NCBI GenBank assembly: GCA_005879205.1
Contig: VBLD01000086.1
Span: 1-33,020 of the forward strand
Reading direction: 5' to 3'
Length of the DNA stretch: 33,020 bases
Source of the DNA: Deltaproteobacteria bacterium
Lineage (GTDB): Bacteria > Desulfobacterota > Binatia > DP-6
The notes beneath the pieces were generated by a model that saw nothing but the letters and a program-made list of their open reading frames with translations, was not told the DNA's origin and made no database searches. A program made the translations under genes and the position numbers. Positions 4,327 to 29,059 of this stretch are shown here, in pieces; position 1 is the stretch's first letter; each line of letters starts with the position of its first letter.

Positions 4327-4551
4327 ATGCACGTGATGGACCGAACGCTCTGCGGAAAGCGATGTCACACGGTTCGCACCGTCGCCCACCATCGTGGACG
4401 CCTGCCACGTGAGACTGCCGGCACGATTCGCTACGCGCTCGAGAACATCGGCCGCACCCTGGTCTTCGTCGACTTCGACTCCGGCCCGTCGCTGATGGTT
4501 CTTCCCGACGACATCAGTCTCGAGGGTCCGGAGAAGACGGTCGAGGGCTGA
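4327..4551 (+). CDS. conserved small hypothetical protein
   Basis: CGKRCHTVRTVAHHRGRLPRETAGTIRYALENIGRTLVFVDFDSGPSLMVLPDDISLEG; start could be ATG 4327 or ATG 4336. Confidence 0.6.
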   Translation: MHVMDRTLCGKRCHTVRTVAHHRGRLPRETAGTIRYALENIGRTLVFVDFDSGPSLMVLPDDISLEGPEKTVEG

Positions 4552-4582
4552 GTCCGAAGCGACGGGTTGCGGCCGAGCGTTG

Positions 4583-5768
4583 TCAGGGCGTGGCGCCGTG
4601 CGTCGTGCGCCCGGACAGCGCCCGGTTCCAGAGCCACGCGAGCCAGCCCGTCGCCTCGACGTCGCGGTCGGCGACGACGGTCACCTTGCCGAGCTCTTCG
4701 TCGCCGCGGCGGATGACGACGTCGCCGAGCGGTTGGCTGCGACGAACCGGCGCTTGCAGCAGCCGAGGGACGCGTGCCTCGACCACGATGCCTCGGTCCT
4801 CGGCGCGCTTGACGAGAACGAGCAGGTCGCCCGTCGCGAGAGCCTTGACGCGATCCTCGGTGCCGCCCGCCACCGGCACCTCGCTCACCACCGCCGCACG
4901 ATGCGCCGCGGCAACCATGCGATAGCTGGCGAACGCCTCGTTCATCAGCCGGGCCGTCTCGGTGAAGCAGCCCTCCTTGGTGAGCACCCCGAGCACGACC
5001 GCGAGCAGCCGGAGGTCGTTGCGCGTCGCGGTGGCGGTGACCGAGAAGCCCGCCTCGTGATAGTAACCGGTCTTCAGGCCGGTCGCCCAGGCCGGTCGCC
5101 CCCGCATACGTGCGCACCAGGTGGTTCGTGTTCGACATCTGCAGGGTGTCGTTGCGGAAGCCGGCGCTCGGCGTACCCGCCCAGCGCATCACCTCCGGGA
5201 ATTTCATGAGCTCGCGACCCAGCACCGCGAGATCGTGTGCGCTCGTGATGTCGGCCGTCTGCCCCTTGCCCGGCGGGAGACCGTGCGGGCTCTGGTAGGT
5301 CGTCTCGGCCAGGCCGAGGGCCTTGGCGCGGGCGTTCATGAGCTCCACGAACGCCGCCGACGTCCCGGCGATGTGCTCCGCCACGGCCACGGCCGCGTCG
5401 TTCGCCGACGCGATCATGATCGCCTTCAGCAGCTCGCCGAGCGGAAACGTCTCCCCCGCCGCCAGGTAGACCTGCGAGCCACCGATACGACTCGCCCAGG
5501 CCGACGTCCGCACCGGCTCGTCGAGCGAGAGCGACCCGTCCTGCACCCGCTCCATGGCAAGCAGCACGGTCATCATCTTCGTCATCGACGCGGGCGGCCA
5601 GCGCCGGTGCGCGTCGCGCTCGGCCAGCACGGTGCCGCTGTCCGCGTCGACGACGAGATACGCCGCCGGCGCGGTTCCCGATTCCGCCTGGTGTGTCCTC
5701 GCCGGGGCCGCGGACGCGACGAGGACGCCCCACGCCACCACGGCTGCGGCTCTTCCTGTTCCCCTCAT
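4583..5768 (-). pseudogene. D-alanyl-D-alanine carboxypeptidase (peptidase S11), frameshifted
   Basis: N-terminal part in ORF 4431..5768 (SMTKMMT SxxK, SAN motif, NTNHLVRTYAGATGL); C-terminal part in a different frame (ATGLKTGYYHEAGFSVTATATRNDLRLLAVVLG). Frame switch at the 13-bp duplication 5075..5100. Confidence 0.88.
5075..5100. repeat. exact 13-bp tandem duplication (caggccggtcgcc x2)
   Basis: caggccggtcgcc at 5075-5087 and again at 5088-5100; 13 nt is not a multiple of 3. Confidence 0.97.
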
Positions 5769-9974: not shown

Positions 9975-11243
9975 ATGCATCGTCTCGCGCTCGTCACCTC
10001 CTTGGGCATCATTTTGCTCGCCGCCCGGCCGGCGGCGGGCGACACGATGCTCTACGCCACCGCCGCAACTGTCGGCCGGGTGGACGGCTTCTGCGTGAAC
10101 CGGGGCGGGGCCCTCACGCCTGGAGCGAGCGTCCACGCCGACACGGGGGTCGACCCCTCATCGCCCGGGGTGCACGATTCGAGCAGCAACCCGCGGCGTC
10201 TCCTGGTCGGCAACGGCGTCCTCTACGTGGGCGAGCACGACCGGGTCGAAGCCTTCAGTATCGGTCCGCACGGCGGGCTCAAGTTCTTGAACCGCACCGC
10301 TCTGATCAGCAGTCCCGCCATGGACGTCATGGACATGGCGCTCAGCCCCGACGGCAAGACGCTCTATGTGGCGCAGAACGGCCCGGACCGGATCGCCGGC
10401 TATTCACTCGACGCCACGGGAGTACCTGCCAGAGACTTCTCGAGCTGCATCCAGGGCCGGGTGAACGTCTCCTACCGCGCGCTCCGCGTCAGCAACTCGT
10501 TGCTCTACGTGAGCGAGCAGCTCACGCCCGGCCGGATCGCCGTCTTCCCGATCGACGCCGGCGGCGGTCTCGGCCCGTGCAGTGCGCAGCGGTCCACGGT
10601 CTGTCAGGGAGGCTCGCGCGCCGGCCAAATGTGCTCCACGGAGGACGCGAACGCCACGACGGGCTGCCCAGGGGCGACCTGCCCCGGCTGCTGCGTGGCA
10701 GCCACGAGACCGATTTCCGAGCGCAGGCGGATCCAGCGACCGCGGCCGTTCGTCATCATGGGAGACCGTCTCTACGTCGACGAGGTCGGCACGGCGCGGA
10801 TCAAGGGCTTCGGCCTGCAGGCCGACGGTCTCTTCTCCCCGCCCACCATGGTGGGAAAGCGGCTGCGCTGGGAGAAGCCGTTCAGCCGCACCGATCCGGT
10901 CCTGGCCTACGTCGACGTCGTCCTCTTCCGTTCTACGCTGCTCGCATCGCAGTTCGAGAAGGGCCGCATCGACGCGTACCGCTTGAAGCCCGACGGCCGG
11001 CTCCCGCACCAGCCGACCAGACGCAGCAACCAGGACGTGCGCACGAGCCCGGTCCGCATGACGGTCAGCGAGGACGGCGTCCTCTACGTCGCGGCCGGGG
11101 AGCTCGACCGGGTAGAGGCGTTCCGGCTGCGGCAGTCGGACGGCCTTCTCGCCTCCGCCACGCCGTTCAGCCAGACGGACGAGCAGACCGGCTCGTTTCC
11201 GAACGATGTCGCACTCGCCATGCTGTCCGGGGACTGCAGGTAG
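9975..11243 (+). CDS. secreted beta-propeller (lactonase/YVTN-like) protein with Cys-rich insert
   Basis: Signal peptide MHRLALVTSLGIILLAARPAAG; repeated blades YVGEHDRVEAFSI, YVAQNGPDRIAGYSL, YVSEQLTPGRIAVFPI, YVAAGELDRVEAFRL; insert CQGGSRAGQMCSTEDANATTGCPGATCPGCC. Confidence 0.8.
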   Translation: MHRLALVTSLGIILLAARPAAGDTMLYATAATVGRVDGFCVNRGGALTPGASVHADTGVDPSSPGVHDSSSNPRRLLVGNGVLYVGEHDRVEAFSIGPHGGLKFLNRTALISSPAMDVMDMALSPDGKTLYVAQNGPDRIAGYSLDATGVPARDFSSCIQGRVNVSYRALRVSNSLLYVSEQLTPGRIAVFPIDAGGGLGPCSAQRSTVCQGGSRAGQMCSTEDANATTGCPGATCPGCCVAATRPISERRRIQRPRPFVIMGDRLYVDEVGTARIKGFGLQADGLFSPPTMVGKRLRWEKPFSRTDPVLAYVDVVLFRSTLLASQFEKGRIDAYRLKPDGRLPHQPTRRSNQDVRTSPVRMTVSEDGVLYVAAGELDRVEAFRLRQSDGLLASATPFSQTDEQTGSFPNDVALAMLSGDCR

Positions 11244-11302
11244 CGGCAATTCGCGCGAATGCAGTTGCCGGCGCGTACCCGATCCCGTACCCTCCGGGGC
11301 CC

Positions 11303-13589
11303 ATGTCACGGCTCGCGGCGCTCGTTTTCGTCCTCTCGGCAGCCTTGCTGGCGCCCCCGGCCGATGCCCGACGCAACCACCGCAACGACCTGATCCGGGT
11401 CACGTCACCGCCGCTGCGCGGCAGCGCGCCTGCGCACCCCTTCGTCAACGTCATCGTCTTCTTCGACGCCCGGGCCGACCCGCTGACCTTCCGCGCGCGG
11501 ATCGGCCGGAACGACGTCACGAGCCGCTTCGTGGCGATCGCGGGCGCGGACGGCACCCCCGGCAAACAGGGGACGATCGAGGCGTCCCTCCTCCGTCCGG
11601 GACACGCCGTGAACCACCTGCGGCTCGAGGTGCGCTCCGTTCCGATCCCGACCAAAGGACGTCGCACGAAACGGCTGCGAGACGTCGATCGCGTGCGCTT
11701 CCGCGCGGTACAGACGATCGATCAACCACCGGTCGCACAGTTCACCGGACCGGACATCGTCTTCCCGGGAATACCCGTCCAGTTCAGCGCGCGCCCGAGT
11801 TCGGATCCGGATCTCGATCAGATGACCTTCCACTGGGACTTCGGCGACACCACGACGTCCGACGAGCGCGACCCGACGCACGTCTTTCCCGATACCTCCA
11901 CCGACCTGACCGTCCAGCTCACGGTGAGCGACGGGCAGCGGACGGCGAGCAACGCGAAGACGCTCTTCTCGTGTCCGGATCTCGACCCGGGCCGCGCGCC
12001 GGGCACGCTCAAGATCGAGGCCGACGCCCAACTCGAGTTCGGCTCGGTCGCGCCCGGCACGAGCGCCACGCGCACGCTCACCGTCCGCAACCTCTCCACC
12101 GATCCCGCGAGCCAGCTGAAGGGCCGGCTCGAGGTGGGTCCGGTCCTGCCTCCGCCCGCGGCGGATGCGACAATCGCTCACCGTGACCTTCGCCCCCACC
12201 GCCGCCGGTCACCAGGGCGCCCATCTCGTCCTCGTGGCCTGCGCGATCAACCGCCCGGCCGCGCATCTCTGGGCGCACGGCTTCGGCGGCAGCGGGTCCG
12301 GGCCCATCTTCGCCGCCGAGCCATTCTTCTTCGCCGACCTCAGCGGGTCGACCTTCGTCATCCTTCCCGACGGGACGCGCCTCGCGGCCGACAACACGCT
12401 GCAGAGCTGCCAGAACACGACCCGCACGGGGACGTCGGACCTGTGTGCGGCGAACGCCGATTGCGTGACGCCGGGCGAGACCTGCGTGACGACGTCGGCC
12501 TGCGTCGGGGGGGATCGCGGCGGCCAGGTGTGCAACGGCTCGGCCGATTGCCCGAACGGCTTCTGCCGGTCCTCCTCGCTCGGCTCGGACCCCGTCGACA
12601 TCTGCGGTGACGAGAGCGGCGGCCTCTATCTCATGACCGACATCGGCACCTTCACCGACCCGAACGTGAACGCGAGCACGGATCTCAGCACGTCGGTCGT
12701 TCACCTGCAGTTCGATCCGCAGACCGGCGCGCGCACCGGGGCCGACGTCGTCGCCCGCACCACCGACGAGACGACGCAGATCGCCTGCGACGACGTGCCC
12801 GCCCGGCAAGGCGGGCTGGTCTACGTCCCCGAGTCCTTCAACGTGGACTTCCCTGCCACGCCGTGCTCGCGCGACCAGCGCGAGGCGCTCACCGCCTTCT
12901 CGAAGGCGACGGGACAGGCGACCGTCGTCGTCCCCGACATCGCTGCCGCGGCGGGGTACGCGGAGTGCGACGACTTCGACCCGACCTCGGATCTCGAGGT
13001 GGCCCGCGACGGGTCGGCCATCTTCGCGAGCCTGCCGCTCACGATTCGACTGGATTTTTCCTGGTTCGGCGGGCTCTGGCGCATCCGGCCGACGCCGCTG
13101 CCCATCTCGCCCGACATCATCGACTTCTTCCAGCTCCATCCCGACGGCGGCATCGTCTACGTGACCACGAGCGATTCGGTGAGCACGGGATCGCTGAACA
13201 TCTACAAGATCTCTCCGGACCAGGCGGTGGCCGGCGCGCAACGGCTGGCGGAGCTGACGCCGTGCGTGATCCAGATCCCGAACAACTGTGCCCGGATCTC
13301 TCCCGACGGTTCCCGGGCCACCCCGTGCCCCGCCGACCCGAACGACGCCCTGAACCGCGCCGGCACGCAGACGGGGGTCAGCTCGTTCACCGTAGGCCGT
13401 CCGGCGCCCGGCTCCTCCGACGGGGTGCTGCTGGTAAGCTTCGGGACGCGAAACGGCTTCACCGATCTCGGAGCGAATCTCACCATCCGTGGGACGGTGG
13501 CGGTCGCGTTGCCCGCGCAGGGCAACAGCAACTCGTGCACCGTCCTCGGGCTCGTCAACCTCGAATTCCTCGACCCGGTCACGTTCTGA
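11303..13589 (+). pseudogene. secreted PKD / choice-of-anchor-D protein with Cys-rich module, frameshifted near 12150-12175
   Basis: Frame 2: signal peptide MSRLAALVFVLSAALLAPPADA, PKD FHWDFGDTTTSDERDPTHVFPDTSTDLTVQLTVSDG, QLEFGSVAPGTSATRTLTVRNLS; continues in frame 3 as QSLTVTFAPTAAGHQGAHLVL... Confidence 0.8.
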
Positions 13590-15035: not shown

Positions 15036-16519
15036 GGGTGCGCGGCGTGCCGCCCTTCCTCGGGAGGCGGCGGCTCGGGCGTGACGAAGGCGAGCCCGTG
15101 CGGCCGCGCGGGTCCCGTGTCACCGTGCGGCCAGCGGGTGCGGTTGAAGTCGACACCGACCTCGCCGGTCAGCTCGTCGCGGAAGCCCTCGTCGAACCAG
15201 AGGTGCCCGGTCCCCGGATCGAGCCGCACGATGTACACGCGCCGATCGCCGTCGCGCTGGTAGCCCGGCACGTCCATCGTGTAGTCGGCGACAGCCACGC
15301 GGGTCCCGTCGGCCGTCATCGCGAGCCCGCTCGGGCCGCCGGCGCGCGCGCGGTTCGGGTCGTCGGGATCGCGGTCGAAGCGCAGCGCCGCTGCGAGCTT
15401 GGGGTGCCACCGGTCGGCCAGGTCGAGCGCCGCGAGCCGGTTCCGCCCGGTGAGCGCCTCGACGTACCAGCGATCGTCGGGAGTGACCGCGGCGTCGGCA
15501 CCGAGCGCGTCGGCGCCGAAGTCGTAGACCAGCCGGAAAGAAGGCACCGACGTCTGCACCGAATCCGAGGCGTAGAGCGCACCGCCCTGCGCCGTGTTCA
15601 CGTAGACGAGCGGCTCGCGGCGCAGGAAGCGCGCCGTCGCGGGCGCGAGGTTCTCCTCGCCGCGAGCACCGGCCTCGAGGAGAACGGTCTTCAGCAGCTG
15701 GAGGTCCTCGAGTCGCCAGATCTGCACGCTGATGCCCGGCATGGCCTCGCCCCGGGCGAGCGCGGTGTACCCGTGGCCCCGGTTGGTCGTGACCAGGCGG
15801 CCGAGGGGCGGCGCCGCCGCCGCTCCGGCCGGCGCGATGATCAGCCCGCGCGCAGCGGGATCCGCGGCCGGGATCTCGCGCACCGGCCGTCCCTCGGCGC
15901 TGAGCTCGAGGAGACCACCTGCCGCGGTCACCAGCTCGACCGGCTCGCCCCGGTAGCGCGCAGGGTCCACGCAGGTCACGGCGACGCGGCCGTTCGGCAA
16001 CGAGACGAAGTCGTGCGGACCCCAGAGCCGCCGCTGGGGCCCGGCATCGTCGACGGTCACGAGCTTCCCGGCGAGCGGCTGCCGGAGGTCGAACACGAAC
16101 GTGCGGTTGGTGAGCAGCCCCCCGGCAAACAGCCGTCGGTCACCCCGCGGCTCGACGTTCACGTTGTGCGGCTCGTTGCCGCGCGAGCGGACGGGATACG
16201 TGCGCAACACCTTGCCGTAGGTGGCCGACGTCGGATCGGCGTCGAGAATGGCGAGAAAATCGCTGTTGTTCCGATCCGCGTCCCCCGCCCACACCGCGAG
16301 GTAAGGCTCGCCCGTGAACAGCGGCGCCTCACGCCCGCGGCAGCCGAAGACCAGCATGAAGACCGCGACCGCGCCGAGCGCCCGCGCGCCAAGACCACGC
16401 AGCGAAGCCGCGGCCCCAGAAGCCGGGCGAGGCTCCGCCGAGCCCGGCGCGGGGTCCGGGGGCATCGGAAGCGCGCAGCGCGGCGCAGCCGCGCGAGCAC
16501 TGGACGGGCCCCCGGACAC
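15032..16519 (-). CDS. SBP56-like (selenium-binding protein/methanethiol oxidase-related) propeller lipoprotein
   Basis: Lipobox-like MLVFGC; LAVWAGDADRNNSDFLAILDADPTSATYGKVL, GNEPHNVN, SVQIWRLEDLQLLKTVLLEA, RRVYIVRLDPGTGHLWFDEGFRDE; overlaps GNAT start by 4 nt; start may be internal (about 16468). Confidence 0.65.
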   Translation of the reverse strand: MSGGPSSARAAAPRCALPMPPDPAPGSAEPRPASGAAASLRGLGARALGAVAVFMLVFGCRGREAPLFTGEPYLAVWAGDADRNNSDFLAILDADPTSATYGKVLRTYPVRSRGNEPHNVNVEPRGDRRLFAGGLLTNRTFVFDLRQPLAGKLVTVDDAGPQRRLWGPHDFVSLPNGRVAVTCVDPARYRGEPVELVTAAGGLLELSAEGRPVREIPAADPAARGLIIAPAGAAAAPPLGRLVTTNRGHGYTALARGEAMPGISVQIWRLEDLQLLKTVLLEAGARGEENLAPATARFLRREPLVYVNTAQGGALYASDSVQTSVPSFRLVYDFGADALGADAAVTPDDRWYVEALTGRNRLAALDLADRWHPKLAAALRFDRDPDDPNRARAGGPSGLAMTADGTRVAVADYTMDVPGYQRDGDRRVYIVRLDPGTGHLWFDEGFRDELTGEVGVDFNRTRWPHGDTGPARPHGLAFVTPEPPPPEEGRHAAHP

Positions 16520-28193: not shown

Positions 28194-29059
28194 GGCCCCG
28201 CCGTGAACGCCGCCGCGGCGTAGCCGATCACGTGCTCGTGCTCGTCGGTCACGTCGAGCGACGTGGTGTGCGCCAGCACCTCGCCGCGGCTGCCGCGAGG
28301 CAGCGCCCGGAGCAGCACCTCGATCGGATGCCGCCCGCAGATGGTCGCACCCGTCGACTCGACGTAGCGCGCGAACCCGTCGGCGTCGCCCGCGACGATG
28401 CGTTCGAGCGCGCCCGCGTCGAGCTCGGTGACGGCGGCGGCGACCGCGGCGCGGTCCGTGGGCGGCACGGGAAGGTAGTCGAAGCGCCGGCCGTAGTGCA
28501 CCAGGTCCGAGCTCACGACGACGAGCGTGTCGGGCGCGAGCCACGACCGCAGCGCGGCGGCGAGCGTCTCGCCGTCGCCGGCTTCGAGCCGCCCGACGAG
28601 CACCGGGACGAGCGCCGCTTCCGGCGCCAGCGCCTGGAGCCACGGAAGCTGGATCTCGAGGGCGTGCTCGCGGAGGAAGACGGCGGGGTTGGCCCGGATG
28701 AGCGGGCAGCGCGTGAGCGCGGCGAGCCCCTCCTGATCGATCCGGACGAGTCCGAGCGGCGTCCGGTAGGCCGTCATCGGCAGGACGGCAGCGCCGCGGA
28801 GCGCGGCGAAGTGACTCGGGCCGAGGACGAGCGCCCGCCGCCAGCCCGTGCCGGCGGCGGCGAACCCGCGCGCCGCCGTCGCGCCCGAGTACTCGTAGGT
28901 GGCGTGCGGGACGAGGATCGCGACGGTGCCGGGACGCGGCGCGCCCGCGGCGAGCATGTCGCGCAGCGCCGCCGCCAGTGCGTCCGGCGCGGCGGGGTAC
29001 CAGCGGCCCGCGAGATGCGGCTCCTTGATGCGCGGCACGGGTCCGGCGGGCTCGCTCAC
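28190..29059 (-). CDS. amrB: MEMO1-like protein (AmmeMemoRadiSam system protein B family)
   Basis: HLAGRWYPAAPDALAAALRDML...ILVPHATYEYSGATAARGFAA...RALVLGPSHFAAL...VVVSSDLVHYGRRF. Confidence 0.9.
   Translation of the reverse strand: MSEPAGPVPRIKEPHLAGRWYPAAPDALAAALRDMLAAGAPRPGTVAILVPHATYEYSGATAARGFAAAGTGWRRALVLGPSHFAALRGAAVLPMTAYRTPLGLVRIDQEGLAALTRCPLIRANPAVFLREHALEIQLPWLQALAPEAALVPVLVGRLEAGDGETLAAALRSWLAPDTLVVVSSDLVHYGRRFDYLPVPPTDRAAVAAAVTELDAGALERIVAGDADGFARYVESTGATICGRHPIEVLLRALPRGSRGEVLAHTTSLDVTDEHEHVIGYAAAAFTAGP

Follow-up and report, generated by a model that had tools for sequence, protein, structure and literature searches.

The window analysed here, a stretch of 33,020 nucleotides that constitutes the entire contig C336 of the draft genome G000, carries on its minus strand a gene for a PBP5-type D-Ala-D-Ala carboxypeptidase. 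An earlier note on this DNA had named the gene as a D-Ala-D-Ala carboxypeptidase, and the identity was confirmed by matches to the Peptidase_S11 (PF00768) and PBP5_C (PF07943) profiles. As assembled, the gene is read in two frames. Its 5′ part (5088..5768) lies in ORF 4431..5768, which encodes 445 aa, matches PF00768 at profile positions 10-200 (E = 8.1e-50), and contains both the SxxK motif (SMTK, 5588-5577) and the SxN motif (SAN, 5408-5400). The 3′ part (4583..5087) is in the other frame, within ORF 4583..5107 (174 aa), and contains the end of Peptidase_S11 (profile positions 205-237), including KTG at 5074-5066, and PBP5_C. This mapping of the motifs bears out the earlier statement that SxxK and SxN are kept while KTG is out of frame.

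The two ORFs had also been regarded as one gene, and comparison with G001, a same-genus genome used as the reference for frames, agrees with this: the orthologue there is a single 392-aa frame that spans both, and the window matches it in frame -1 before the repeat (91.5%) and in frame -2 after it (90.9%), that is, with identities of approximately 92% for the 5′ part and 91% for the 3′ part. The window gene is thus about 91-92% identical to an intact same-genus orthologue, and its DNA resembles PBP5/DacA-type carboxypeptidases in having SxxK, SxN and KTG, the same domain order and a PBP5_C tail. It differs from them, as assembled, in that KTG and PBP5_C are out of frame with SxxK and SxN.

The frame shift is located at the junction of two copies of a 13-bp unit. 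On the minus strand, 5100-5075 reads GGCGACCGGCCTG GGCGACCGGCCTG, and is followed by AAGACCGGT, encoding K-T-G, at 5074-5066. In gene order, copy 1 occupies 5088..5100 and copy 2, which adjoins it and is exact, occupies 5075..5087. TRF reported period 13 with 100% matches at 5075-5101, so that the exact tandem duplication described earlier was confirmed both by the sequence and by this program. No other exact tandem duplication in the 33-kb window has a period of 13 or more, the next longest being 9 bp, and of 300 Markov-shuffled versions of the window just one contained an exact tandem duplication with a period of 13-59.

The site in related genomes

Protein matches were found in 54 of the 58 genomes searched, the window's own genome counted, and the best of them came from the same genus (91% and 90%) and then from the same family. 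We read the KTG site in the loci of 10 relatives, same-genus and same-family genomes included. Among the loci read were the soil MAG contigs VBKG01000312.1 and VBLA01000335.1, the site sequence of which is the same as that of G002 and G006. All 10 relatives have one copy of the stretch, an unbroken frame and KTG in frame with SxxK, and no repeat tract was present at the site in any of them. Comparison with other strains and MAGs, a check suggested in the earlier note, therefore gave only the one-copy form, and, judged from these sequences, the duplication is private to G000 among the genomes read at the site. No second allele of the locus was found within the G000 assembly.

Constraint on the two halves was compared by polarising the changes on the window lineage with G001 and G002, each half being counted in its own frame. 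The window lineage has 9 nonsynonymous and 27 synonymous changes before the repeat and 7 and 19 after it, and the corresponding numbers of the G001 lineage are 8 and 22 before the repeat site and 8 and 16 after it. The ratio is similar in both halves and in the G001 lineage, with no sign of the relaxed constraint or decay after inactivation that would characterize a pseudogene. This similarity indicates that the part 3′ of the break is under protein constraint and, as far as codon positions can tell, has been translated up to the present or at least up to the very recent past. Old pseudogenisation is ruled out by this test, because both halves are constrained; the lack of decay is also compatible with a very young pseudogene.

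The window is collinear with the G001 contig C137 along almost all of its own length, and two other kinds of repeat were seen. Near a gene boundary of C137 (L102:4735) a 23-bp unit, CCATGAGCGTGAGCGAAGGATAT, stands about three times in tandem, and the array is absent from the opposite position of the window (approximately 29053-29058). A dispersed repeat, rich in GC, about 65-80 bp long and in part palindromic, which resembles a REP- or MITE-like element, occurs in the window (16421-16515) and at L136:8591-8656, L117:26-104 and 156-235, and L118:2973-3071; it is present in the window's genome and in about 30-40 places in G001.

Other frame breaks in the same assembly

The scaffolded draft G000 has 510 contigs that total 4.2 Mb and is 82.6% complete, and 47 runs of N, from 6 to 170 bp, were counted inside its contigs in the stretches sampled. 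Six of its contigs, with approximately 189 kb aligned, were compared with G001 for frame breaks. This gave 10 candidates, and protein-level checking upheld 9 of them; the candidate at C5:26662 (+1) was dropped as lying in an apparent intergenic stretch.

Two of the breaks are in the window itself. Besides the 13 extra bases of the carboxypeptidase (5075-5100, minus strand), gene 11141..13586 on the plus strand, an 820-aa ORF in G001, is split by the loss of 50 bases at about 12167-12170 that are present in both G001 and G002. Its product looks by eye like a secreted PKD-like protein. Elsewhere in G000, 11 bases are missing from lolA, 10 from bioB, 23 from a 709-aa ORF and 35 from an aldehyde dehydrogenase gene. 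Another aldehyde dehydrogenase gene, named by the look of the sequence only, has two breaks (-1 and -25). The last break, again by comparison with G001, is a gain of 7 bases in leuS on contig C328 (L149:1731-1738), where the gene is read in two frames, C328:553-1731 and 1724-2281. This is the sole copy of leuS in the assembly. Since leuS is indispensable, and the life of a bacterium lacking it is implausible, the leuS break at least must be an assembly error.

Most of these breaks are the size of gaps: either 10-50 bp are missing or there are 7-13 bp too many. In the contigs compared with G001, 15 of the 16 N gaps are 5-44 bp shorter than the matching distance in G001, and this shortfall covers the size range of most of the missing stretches. 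With gaps underestimated in this way, some joins are expected to have been estimated at zero or below, and at these tens of bases would be missing or short overlaps doubled.

Origin of the duplication

These results suggest, at a probability of roughly 85%, that the duplication is a local assembly error made at a scaffold join and that the organism itself carries an ordinary, intact carboxypeptidase gene. The 13-bp duplication is thus real in the sequence file but most likely not in the organism. This reading is favoured because G000 contains many such breaks (nine in approximately 189 kb, this one counted), some of them in core genes such as the sole and indispensable leuS, because its gaps are mis-sized, and because both halves of the gene are constrained.

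The error may have arisen as follows. Two contigs would have ended within the carboxypeptidase gene with about 13-14 bases in common, fewer than a k-mer assembler needs to merge them. On the evidence of read pairs the contigs would then have been set side by side, and the ends would have been concatenated with no Ns between them and the overlap left uncollapsed. The shared 13 bp would thereby have been written twice, causing the frame shift with no need of a prior repeat. More generally, where the gap at a join is estimated at zero or below, the join may be written without Ns, so that either the true intervening bases are lost or a short overlap is doubled.

Comparable errors are described in a curation review of metagenome assemblies, in which duplicate sequence is left at scaffold joins despite the overlap of the contigs, repeats are given in the wrong number and further local errors occur, so that incorrect protein-coding sequences propagate (PMC7111523). 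The present case shares with these errors the duplicate sequence at what would be overlapping contig ends, the wrong local repeat number and the incorrect protein-coding sequence. It differs in that Ns lie between the copies in the published duplicate-overlap case whereas the present site has none; G000 moreover has gap-sized losses at several genes.

Several observations weigh against an assembly error. The site at 5075-5100 is free of Ns, no doubled overlap longer than 5 bp abuts the N gaps visible in G000, and no other frame-breaking exact tandem duplication of at least 10 bp occurs in the 517 kb of G000 sampled, so that this assembly has fewer doubled overlaps than lost stretches. The reference genome G001 was scaffolded as well and is also a draft, in which as many as four candidate breaks were seen. 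These points leave some room for a real and very recent 13-bp duplication, produced by replication slippage or repair, that would have put the carboxypeptidase of this strain out of action. Enzymes of the PBP5 type can usually be dispensed with, and the paralogous S11 gene of G000 at C190:6342-6875 would make the loss tolerable. The duplication is exact and found in G000 alone among the genomes read, and a mutation of very recent date would likewise have left no decay. We nevertheless consider it unlikely, because similar gap-sized changes break the sole leuS, lolA, bioB and other genes of G000, and one technical cause explains both this break and the second broken gene of the same contig better. 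Given the rarity of doubled overlaps in G000 and the draft state of G001, we assign about one-tenth of the probability to a young real mutation.

Pseudogenisation, reversible slippage and assembly error had all been named in the earlier note, and this set of causes was correct; its title, which presented the gene as broken, fares less well, as the tests favour assembly error over the other two. Slippage obtained no support. Two exact, frame-changing copies of 13 bp could in principle recombine or slip, and if the two-copy form were real and returned to one copy at a measurable rate, trimming of the cell wall would be switched ON and OFF by phase variation. However, a pair of 13-bp copies is a poor substrate, and a contingency locus would be recognized by a repeat tract or variable copy number in relatives, whereas in each of the 10 relatives read here the stretch is present once and unrepeated; nor does the G000 assembly contain a second allele. 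We therefore regard phase variation as very improbable. Even less credible is a gene that functions by way of two separate polypeptides or of a programmed frameshift over the repeat: an ATG at 5107 is in frame with ORF 4583..5107 and might start a second polypeptide, but SxxK and KTG are required in one active site, the relatives have a single continuous protein, and the duplicated unit is not conserved.

The split leuS on C328 is a useful marker of assembly error. Given the comparable split of this sole leuS, frame breaks in well-conserved genes of G000 should not be taken as pseudogenes or switches unless reads support them. Should the duplication prove real, this would be a young and unremarkable case of a dispensable enzyme being lost.
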